In this document: one piece after another, positions 54,448 through 57,063 of the stretch | Layout: every line of letters starts with the position of its first letter | Position numbering within the stretch: position 1 is the stretch's first letter | Made by a program: the position numbers and the translations under genes | The notes under the pieces: generated by a model | Database searches by the model: none | Told to the model about the DNA's origin: nothing | What the model saw: only the letters and a program-made list of their open reading frames with translations | From: Thermococcus onnurineus NA1 | GTDB lineage: Archaea > Methanobacteriota_B > Thermococci > Thermococcales > Thermococcaceae | Direction: 5' to 3' | Length of the DNA: 64,000 bases | Assembly: GCF_000018365.1 (NCBI RefSeq) | Contig: NC_011529.1 | Span: forward strand, 1,550,001 to 1,614,000

Positions 54448-54454
54448 CGGTAGC

Positions 54455-54483
54455 AACCTCCCTTAACCAGTTAAGGGTAGGTT
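54455..54483. repeat. 13-bp inverted repeat between convergent genes
   Basis: AACCTCCCTTAAC and GTTAAGGGTAGGTT are separated by two bases and pair along 13 positions with one bulged A. It lies between the 3' ends of the Nip7-like gene and the minus-strand lipoprotein gene, so it could terminate transcription from both sides or bind a dimeric protein. Confidence 0.6.
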
Positions 54484-54545
54484 GTGCAGTTATAATCCTT
54501 TAGCAGGTTGCAGAGGACAGACTAAAAATTGAAAGAATGGACGAA

Positions 54546-55454
54546 TTATCCAAGTGTCACGACTATGACATAGCCGTCGGTCGTTTTAAGTCCTGTCACC
54601 TTTATTGTTCCCTTTTGGGTATTGGGGTCATAGTTAAGTGAGATGTCCACGTCCCCCGAGAGAACATTAGTTGGAATCGCCACCACCGCGAATCTCTGTT
54701 GCTTCGGAGGACCACCAACGACGGCATTGTTTAATGCTCCTTGGAGCTCAATCTCGTTCCAGAGTTTTGCCCTTAGAATGGGTATTACCTCTCCCGTGTA
54801 GAGCGTATCGCTTGAGCCTGTTCCTCCGCTCTGGAGCGTGAAGACCCTGTAGAGCTCCTCGAACTTTTCTGAATCGTTGAGTTTTGGATAACCGTTGATT
54901 ACCTCGTCTATGGTTATTCCCTTTGCGAGCTCGCTAAGCGGGACCTTCCTTGCCACTCCAAAGTCCGAAGGCATTTTGTCAAGAGATTCAAAAGATGGCA
55001 GTCCGTTCAGCAGTTTTCTGTACTCGTCTGGAATCTTTTTCACACCAAAGGTCTCTGAGACAAGGTTGTCGCCGTGGATTTCCTTAGCCTTGAATGTGAA
55101 GCCCTCACTGGACTCCAGCTTTTCAACGCGAACCACGTTGTTGGGCTCAATCCAGAAGGCCCACAATTCTTTCTGCGTTATTGATGCCTTGTCCCCCTTT
55201 ATCTCAAGTCCAACCGAGTACTGCTCCGGAACTACGAGAATATCGGCGTTGTCTCTCACCGTTAGATACGCGTTGTGTATCTCGTCATTGGTTACGATCA
55301 GGAGAATGGTTGTACTGCCGATCTCCCCGGAACCTGAGTCTGTCGGTTTATCCTGGCTGTTTGAGGTGTTGGCCTTTGTTCCTCCGCCCGTGCAACCGCT
55401 TGCAATCACAGCAAGGGCAATAAGGAGAAGGAAAAGGAGGGTTTTCACCCTCAT
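54546..55454 (-). CDS. Lipoprotein of unknown function
   Basis: A 302-residue lipoprotein. RVKTLLFLLLIALAVIASGC is the signal with lipobox, followed by a low-complexity Ser/Asp/Gly linker. The mature domain has GEIGSTTILLIVTNDEIHNA and, towards the C-terminus, GDVDISLNYDPNTQKGTIKV. I do not recognise the family. It lies 9 nt after the stop of the DUF996-type membrane gene, so the two are in an operon. AAGGTGGAAAT precedes the ATG. Confidence 0.8.
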   Translation of the reverse strand: MRVKTLLFLLLIALAVIASGCTGGGTKANTSNSQDKPTDSGSGEIGSTTILLIVTNDEIHNAYLTVRDNADILVVPEQYSVGLEIKGDKASITQKELWAFWIEPNNVVRVEKLESSEGFTFKAKEIHGDNLVSETFGVKKIPDEYRKLLNGLPSFESLDKMPSDFGVARKVPLSELAKGITIDEVINGYPKLNDSEKFEELYRVFTLQSGGTGSSDTLYTGEVIPILRAKLWNEIELQGALNNAVVGGPPKQQRFAVVAIPTNVLSGDVDISLNYDPNTQKGTIKVTGLKTTDGYVIVVTLG

Positions 55455-55463
55455 ATTTCCACC

Positions 55464-56114
55464 TTACTTCCCAGTGAGTCCCCAGAGTATCCAGGCTATT
55501 GGCTCAAGGGTGAACCATGCAACAAAGGCTAATGCAATTCCGATTACCGCTATGACGAGCCTTCCAAGGAAGTGTGTCTCTCTATCTGCAATAATGGTTC
55601 TGCCTCTCCGGGTATCGTTTATCACCACGTATCCACTTCCATCGGCGTTGATGATTTCCGCGTCCACCCCTGCATATGGGTTTATCGCCCACGCAACTTT
55701 TCTGTATACTGCCCCGATGATTCCAAATATCTTGGAGACGTGGGTAGTATATGCGTAGACGTCCTTCTTGGTCCAGATGAGCAGGCCTATGAAGGCGAGC
55801 ACGAGGAATGCCCCTATGCTCGATTCGGGCTTCAGCCACAGGAATAACATCGCTAGGATATAGGTTATGAGGGTCGCCCAGGCGAACTTCGTCGTTTTCT
55901 CCTTGATCGGGATGTTGTAGTGGTGGGCGAGCGACGTCAGCCCTATCATCAATGCCAGGACGCTTCCAATCCCGAGAATCACCATAGCCAATGTGAATCC
56001 TATGCCCACTTCGCTTGGGTCAAGAACGGCACCAAGTCCTGCTATGGAAAGTATGACTCCAATGTTCCCGAGGCCCCCGAGTACGCCGGCGAGTTTCCTA
56101 TCAACAACCAGCAA
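55464..56114 (-). CDS. DUF996-type membrane protein
   Basis: A 216-residue membrane protein. The first 120 residues have four helices (for example LGGLGNIGVILSIAGLGAVL), followed by a soluble stretch (NADGSGYVVINDTRRGRTII) and a final helix (LVIAVIGIALAFVAWFTLEP). The first half resembles archaeal DUF996. The start is a TTG at 56114, three bases after GGAGGTGAT. Upstream, this same ribosome site occurs three times in a 16-bp tandem repeat (56115-56162). Confidence 0.78.
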   Translation of the reverse strand: MLVVDRKLAGVLGGLGNIGVILSIAGLGAVLDPSEVGIGFTLAMVILGIGSVLALMIGLTSLAHHYNIPIKEKTTKFAWATLITYILAMLFLWLKPESSIGAFLVLAFIGLLIWTKKDVYAYTTHVSKIFGIIGAVYRKVAWAINPYAGVDAEIINADGSGYVVINDTRRGRTIIADRETHFLGRLVIAVIGIALAFVAWFTLEPIAWILWGLTGK

Positions 56115-56162
56115 TTTATCACCTCCTTACTTTATCACTTCCTTACTTTATCACCTCCTTAT
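56115..56162 (-). repeat. Three tandem 16-bp repeats containing a Shine-Dalgarno
   Basis: On the minus strand, GTAAGGAGGTGATAAA is repeated with one change in the middle copy (GGAAGTGAT) and one at the outer end. Each outer copy contains a perfect GGAGGTGAT. Only the copy next to TTG 56114 has usable spacing. It may reflect slippage or provide standby ribosome sites. Confidence 0.85.
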
Positions 56163-56316
56163 AAATGTTGTGGATAATGCACTCGAGTACAGTAATGTGC
56201 ATCTTGCCCATTGGAACAGAAACCCTGCTGGACTTTCCTAACCTGTCGTAACTTTTTTAAGACCTATTGCGTAGGCATAATTGGTAACAAAAGGTAACTA
56301 AAGGGGGTGACGCCCG

Positions 56317-57063
56317 ATGATTAGGAGGGTGAAGACGGGCATCCCTGGAATGGATGAGGTTCTCCACGGGGGAATTCCCGGGAGGAATGTGGTTCTGCTC
56401 AGCGGCGGCCCAGGAACGGGCAAGTCTATCTTCAGCCAGCAGTTCCTCTGGAACGGCTTACAAAACGGCGAGCCTGGAATATATGTGGCTCTGGAAGAGC
56501 ACCCCATCCAGGTCAGGCAGAACATGGCCCAGTTCGGCTGGGACGTCAGGAAGTACGAGGAGGAAGGTCTTTTTGCCATGGTTGACGCCTTCACAGCTGG
56601 AATCGGTAAGAGCAAGGAGTATGAGAAATACATCGTCCACGACCTTACCGACATCCGCGAGTTTATAGACGTCCTCAGAACGGCCATCAAGGACATCGGT
56701 GCCAAGAGGGTCGTTATAGACTCGGTTACGACCCTCTACATCAACAAGCCTGCCGTGGCGAGGAGCGTGGTTATGCAGCTCAAAAGGGTTTTGGCTGGCC
56801 TGGGGGTTACGAGCATACTCGTCAGTCAGATAAGCGTCGGTGAGCGCGGCTTTGGTGGACCCGGTGTTGAGCACGGTGTTGATGGAATAATCCGTCTTGA
56901 CCTTGACGAGATAGACGGCGAGCTGAAGCGCTCACTTATTGTCTGGAAGATGCGCGGAACGAGCCACTCCATGAGGAGGCACCCCTTTGAGATAACCGAC
57001 AAGGGAATAGTCGTCTATCCCGACAAGGTTCTGAAGAGGAAGACAGTTGTTGAGCTCGAGTGA
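56317..57063 (+). CDS. KaiC-domain RecA-superfamily ATPase
   Basis: A 248-residue single-domain KaiC-like ATPase. [20 protein letters not shown], the Walker [16 protein letters not shown], catalytic EE in [11 protein letters not shown], Walker [11 protein letters not shown] and a C-terminal strand pair are intact. Archaeal members are of unclear function, perhaps signalling or DNA-related. GGGGGTGACGCCCG precedes the ATG. The region upstream has GGTAAC repeated with 4-bp spacing. The stop overlaps the reading frame of the next gene, a DNA-binding partner. Confidence 0.92.

Follow-up and report, generated by a model that had tools for sequence, protein, structure and literature searches.

A tandem array of complete Shine-Dalgarno sites, different in copy number between two species, in front of a membrane-protein gene of Thermococcus onnurineus NA1

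Introduction

Repeats of variable copy number in the leaders of genes are a known phenomenon. In the 5' untranslated region of Moraxella catarrhalis genes, an AGAT repeat is found at uspA2 and a G tract at uspA1; as summarised in the source, the AGAT repeat comprises 6-23 copies across strains, and its copy number is linked to expression (PMC4679880). A further case is msp1a of Anaplasma marginale, where a 5'-UTR microsatellite between the Shine-Dalgarno (SD) site and the ATG varies between strains, and the msp1a mRNA levels of the genotypes are unequal in E. coli (PMC2741432). Marine Beggiatoaceae carry TAACTGA direct repeats before start codons, with about 170 sets in one genome (PMC4679880).

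Here, we describe a locus of the archaeon Thermococcus onnurineus NA1, located in a stretch of 64,000 nucleotides (NC_011529.1, positions 1,550,001 to 1,614,000; the window in the following), where a 16-bp repeat containing an SD site runs up to the start codon of a membrane-protein gene. As at uspA2 and uspA1, a tandem repeat of variable copy number lies between promoter and start codon. However, the repeat unit there is short and simple, whereas here it is a whole ribosome-binding site, and strain variation together with its effect was demonstrated there, whereas our locus offers a difference between species only. The strain-varying repeat of msp1a sits at the ribosome-binding site as well, but it alters the distance between a single SD and the start, while in our case this distance stays constant and it is entire SDs that are repeated. 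The TAACTGA repeats likewise stand immediately before start codons, and a translational role is suspected for them; their unit hardly resembles an SD and is present in many sets, in contrast to the one locus with a maximal SD reported here. A targeted literature search, which was of incomplete coverage, returned repeats of other units in leaders (PMC4679880, PMC2741432) and no published array of whole, maximal SDs.

Results

Anatomy of the repeat array

Reading of the sequence confirmed a 16-bp direct repeat at 56115-56162 on the minus strand that extends up to the TTG start; the minus-strand sequence of the array is ...CAACATTTATAAGGAGGTGATAAAGTAAGGAAGTGATAAAGTAAGGAGGTGATAAA, followed by TTG. 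Tandem Repeats Finder describes it by a period of 16, 2.9 copies, 93% match and a score of 87, which is the highest among the 27 arrays of the window (runner-up: 61). The sequence GGAGGTGATAAA, allowing for at most one mismatch, occurs five times in the window, including three times at the array, with 0.37 occurrences expected. A full-strength SD site is found inside each repeat unit, weakened in the middle copy. In the register of the original prediction, copy 3 matches exactly, GGAAG stands in place of GGAGG in copy 2, and in copy 1 an A replaces the first G because this copy runs into the TATA box. The coordinates of all features are given in Table 1.

At its 3' end, the 16S rRNA of the organism has the sequence CGATCACCTCCT, and AGGAGGTGAT, present in copies 1 and 3, is a perfect match to it over 10 nt. 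Matches of this length precede just 3 of the 239 SD-preceded genes in 304 kb of sampled genome sequence. The gap of 3 nt between the last SD base and TTG is the modal one in a 304-kb sample, tied with 4 nt (63 genes each). For copy 2, the duplex with the anti-SD amounts to about -10.7 kcal/mol at 37 C, versus -17.3 kcal/mol for an intact SD. Sequence, repeat finder and 16S match thus bear out what had originally been predicted, a triplicated 16-bp SD repeat before a TTG start.

The unit can be written as AAGGAGGTGAT-AWA-GT, i.e., an SD followed by a 3-nt spacer and by the GT of GTG. The last copy in the window differs from the unit AAGGAGGTGATATAGT at the start codon alone, where it has TT for GT. 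Since only the first two bases of a start codon belong to the unit, the upstream SDs face GTA at the start-codon position, and the next GTG is 11 nt off, within the following SD. Judged by this composition, the unit appears to have arisen through duplication of the SD, the spacer and the two first start-codon bases. The whole array could be obtained without any other sequence, because simple tandem duplication of that segment suffices.

Table 1. Features of the locus, in coordinates of the window.
Feature	Position	Strand	Remarks
Accessory cassette	54448..56233		~1.8 kb, two genes and array; boundaries approximate, from blastn
Predicted lipoprotein, 302 aa	54546..55454	-	second cassette gene; 65% identical in orthologous cassette
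Predicted membrane protein, 216 aa	55464..56114	-	TTG start; no known family
Repeat copy 3, AAGGAGGTGATAAATT	56113..56128	-	SD serving the gene, 3 nt before TTG start
Repeat copy 2, AAGGAAGTGATAAAGT	56129..56144	-	SD one base weaker; from sequence
Predicted transcription start	56136	-	T/G pyrimidine-purine step inside copy 2, 35 nt from BRE motif start; alternative 56133
Repeat copy 1, AAGGAGGTGATAAAGT	56145..56160	-	perfect SD; from sequence
Predicted BRE+TATA element, ACAACATTTATAAG	56158..56171	-	abuts and overlaps copy 1; 11.24 bits
KaiC-like ATPase gene	56317..57063	+	divergent; conserved neighbour anchoring the locus in both species

An orthologous array with 14 copies

Among 61 genomes of the genus and 94 of the order, the membrane protein has a single relative, encoded in genome G005; a first protein scan of genome contigs and a tblastn search against plasmids revealed none. 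The two proteins are 56% identical. In G005, the gene lies beside the equivalent KaiC-like gene and is followed by the lipoprotein gene. The alignment of the orthologues starts at residue 1 and therefore supports both the TTG and the GTG start. The leader in G005 consists of 14 identical, perfect copies of AAGGAGGTGATATAGT at L005:1276-1499, directly before the GTG start. Copy number is therefore 3 in T. onnurineus NA1 and 14 in G005, as counted in two species with one genome per species. In both carriers, the repeat is located between the predicted TATA box and the start codon, and its copy number is unlike between these related genomes, which are two of the properties of a 5'-UTR VNTR.

Within each genome the copies are homogeneous, while the proteins have diverged widely. 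Near-identical copies in spite of this divergence suggest that the arrays are young, or have been kept alike through turnover, and their homogeneity would speak for ongoing turnover, through slippage or unequal recombination. The proposal that the array varies in copy number holds up as far as the comparison between species reaches.

In 115 genomes of the phylum, GGAGGTGAT occurs twice within 3-25 nt only at the array and at the orthologous locus, where about 0.45 such pairs are expected by chance in total. Looser pairs of 8-mer SDs were found elsewhere at chance frequency (5 versus 5.2 expected). With a single locus and 8-mer pairs at chance level, a general habit of SD arrays in the genus or phylum was rejected.

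Promoter and predicted leader

A 14-bp BRE+TATA promoter model with the motif GAAAagcTTATAAA was learned from 354 upstream regions of both genomes. Its best motif in the leader of T. onnurineus, the element listed in Table 1, belongs to the top 0.04% of genomic positions. In G005, the best leader motif is AAAAGCTTTTTAAG with 14.35 bits, likewise abutting copy 1. A single published start site, 1,182,769 (PMC5316973), served to calibrate the distance of 35 nt from motif to start; in contig coordinates, a promoter motif of 15 bits begins exactly 35 nt before this site, and an ATG with an SD follows 33 nt after it. Applied to the array, the model predicts a start in copy 2; the start predicted for G005 is a T/G step, too, in a repeat phase identical to that at 56136. 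In T. onnurineus NA1, the TATA box lies between -30 and -20, and transcription starts strongly favour a pyrimidine-purine step (PMC5316973).

Under this placement of the start, copy 1 would sit between the TATA box and the transcription start, outside the mRNA, and the mRNA would hold n-2 SDs, which means one SD in T. onnurineus and about twelve in G005. The predicted leader is 22 nt long in the former and about 198 nt in the latter. Upstream of the serving SD, no additional complete SD is predicted in the mRNA of T. onnurineus, and about 11 are predicted in that of G005. A leader of 198 nt would be unusual, because 84.6% of T. onnurineus leaders have at most 50 nt (PMC5316973). Secondary structure is predicted to be almost absent from the leader in both species. 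Transcription might also begin from a further minus-strand motif at 56268 (9.8 bits), which mirrors the KaiC promoter; the mRNA would then be longer and contain all three SDs.

The original prediction had placed two perfect sites and a weakened one in the leader, which is probably wrong, given a predicted start in copy 2 and one SD in the mRNA. It had named a start inside the array, with a single SD left in the mRNA, as the finding that would speak against it; this is what is predicted for T. onnurineus.

The accessory cassette

In the closest relative, G026, the flanks are 93% and 95% identical and the cassette is missing, with a clean junction. Because G026 has the flanking genes without the cassette, the gene pair is, on this comparison, a cassette that was gained or lost. 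At its downstream edge, we observe an inverted repeat, CAACCTCCCTTAACCAGTTAAGGGTAGGTTG (54454-54486), which is possibly a terminator or the end of a mobile element. Two other genomes (L227 and L245) carry a similar sequence, CAACCCCCCTTAACCAGTTAGGGGGGGTTG, upstream of their KaiC gene.

Neither the membrane-protein gene nor the lipoprotein gene has a match in Pfam or NCBIfam. The assignment of the former to DUF996, which was made in the original prediction, had to be given up: neither orthologue matches PF06195 at E values up to 10, and profile comparison assigns the array gene a probability of 12.9% only. A search of the own genome with PF06195 detected two true DUF996 genes, both located elsewhere, and the array gene is not among them. 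For the membrane protein, structure prediction yielded a helical model of low confidence that matches no PDB entry at E below 0.001; the model for the lipoprotein was unusable.

Similar arrays in other genomes

A pattern scan for three SDs in a row across 84,980 genomes reported 112 stretches (80 of them read), in addition to 51 viral matches. According to the 80 of 112 genome stretches that were read, the matches are mostly in-frame coding repeats or GC-rich repeats. Two were kept, as their SDs lie right before an open frame. The first (L060, 3826-3866, minus strand) comes from Alicyclobacillus kakegawensis and has three exact 16-bp copies of ACAGGAGGTGATAAAG directly before an ATG; the gene behind it encodes a Cys-rich bacteriocin precursor of the heterocycloanthracin/sonorensin type (TIGR03601). 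This array of three 16-bp copies is a convergent and clear analogue. As in T. onnurineus, triple 16-bp SD copies lead into a start codon, but the carrier is a bacterium and the gene is unrelated, and the array was identified by the pattern scan. The second (L068, 1087-1145) is found in a Candidatus Bipolaricaulota bin, where an ORF of 528 aa is preceded by three irregularly spaced GGAGGTGAT in an intergenic position. In the Hymenobacter genomes L081, L108, L121 and L126, we observed several 16-bp tandem arrays of GGAGGTGATGGGGTGA that apparently have no link to start codons.

Discussion

We interpret the array as a ribosome-binding-site VNTR that probably affects the output of the membrane protein to a moderate extent, and give this interpretation about an even chance. 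It would have arisen by tandem duplication of the 16-bp segment made up of the SD, the 3-nt spacer and the two first start-codon bases, and replication slippage or unequal recombination may have shifted the copy number to the 3 and 14 copies seen in the two species. Translation would be driven by the last copy only, the sole one with a start codon at working distance. With the TATA box abutting copy 1, copies 1 and 2 would act as the spacer between TATA box and transcription start. Three copies would then be the minimal array that gives a leader with one intact SD, since with two copies the leader would be 6 nt long and lack an SD. If just one SD is transcribed, the triplication in T. onnurineus would matter chiefly for spacing in the DNA. 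Each extra copy would add 16 nt of unstructured leader and one 30S docking site that lacks a start codon, and extra copies would probably change membrane-protein output moderately. The eleven extra copies in G005 may thus be start-less 30S sites that feed, queue or trap subunits. Against the VNTR interpretation stand the calibration of the start on one published site, the second promoter motif at 56268, the presence of the locus in only two genomes, and the decay of the middle copy in T. onnurineus, as a spacer or neutral sequence would be expected to show.

Neutral turnover is the main and a serious rival, with an appreciable chance of being correct that we place somewhat short of even. It holds that a ribosome-binding site was duplicated by chance and that slippage expands and contracts the repeat, while extra copies are tolerated without regulatory meaning because the last copy always retains SD, spacer and start codon. 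The accessory nature of the gene (2 of 94 genomes), the damaged SD of the middle copy and the 14 identical copies in G005, which fit a recent expansion, are in agreement with such a history. The occurrence of the array in both known carriers despite 56% protein identity, as well as the similar array before a start codon in Alicyclobacillus, would argue for more than chance, but both are compatible with neutrality, too.

Standby sites make up for structured start regions. A standby or loading array had been suggested originally as well; in such an array, 30S subunits bound at the upstream SDs would move along to the start codon, so that initiation rises. We regard it as unlikely. The suggestion loses ground in T. 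onnurineus, where just one SD is predicted in the mRNA, and stays alive in G005, whose predicted leader contains some twelve perfect SDs, each of which is predicted to bind the anti-SD with about -6 kcal/mol as extrapolated to 80 C. With the leader predicted to be unstructured in both species, however, the start region would not be sequestered and there would be nothing to bypass, and start-less upstream SDs could equally act as decoys that lower initiation.

That the repeat acts in the DNA, as a reiterated operator or as weak promoters whose SD likeness is incidental, is very improbable: copies 1 and 2 do lie in the promoter by prediction and each unit attains a weak BRE+TATA score (4.1-5.5 bits), but this is far under the abutting TATA boxes (11.2 and 14.4 bits), a 16-bp period does not bring the sites onto one face of the helix, and an operator needs neither a 10-nt anti-SD match nor an exact stop at the start codon nor the modal spacing.

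Returning to the ribosome-binding-site VNTR, what is new, as far as the targeted literature search shows, is a repeated unit that forms a whole and maximal ribosome-binding site. With 3 and 14 copies, the two species provide a natural copy-number series for the question of what start-less upstream SDs do, i.e., whether they recruit, queue or trap small ribosomal subunits. A more far-reaching idea, which we consider rather doubtful, is an archaeal contingency device whose repeat unit is a complete ribosome-binding site: copy number would set both the distance from TATA box to start codon and the SD count of the mRNA, from an SD-less leader with two copies over one SD with three to a long multi-SD leader with 14, and would so grade the expression of the membrane-protein/lipoprotein cassette. 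The locus would also be a candidate for phase-variation-like behaviour in an archaeon.
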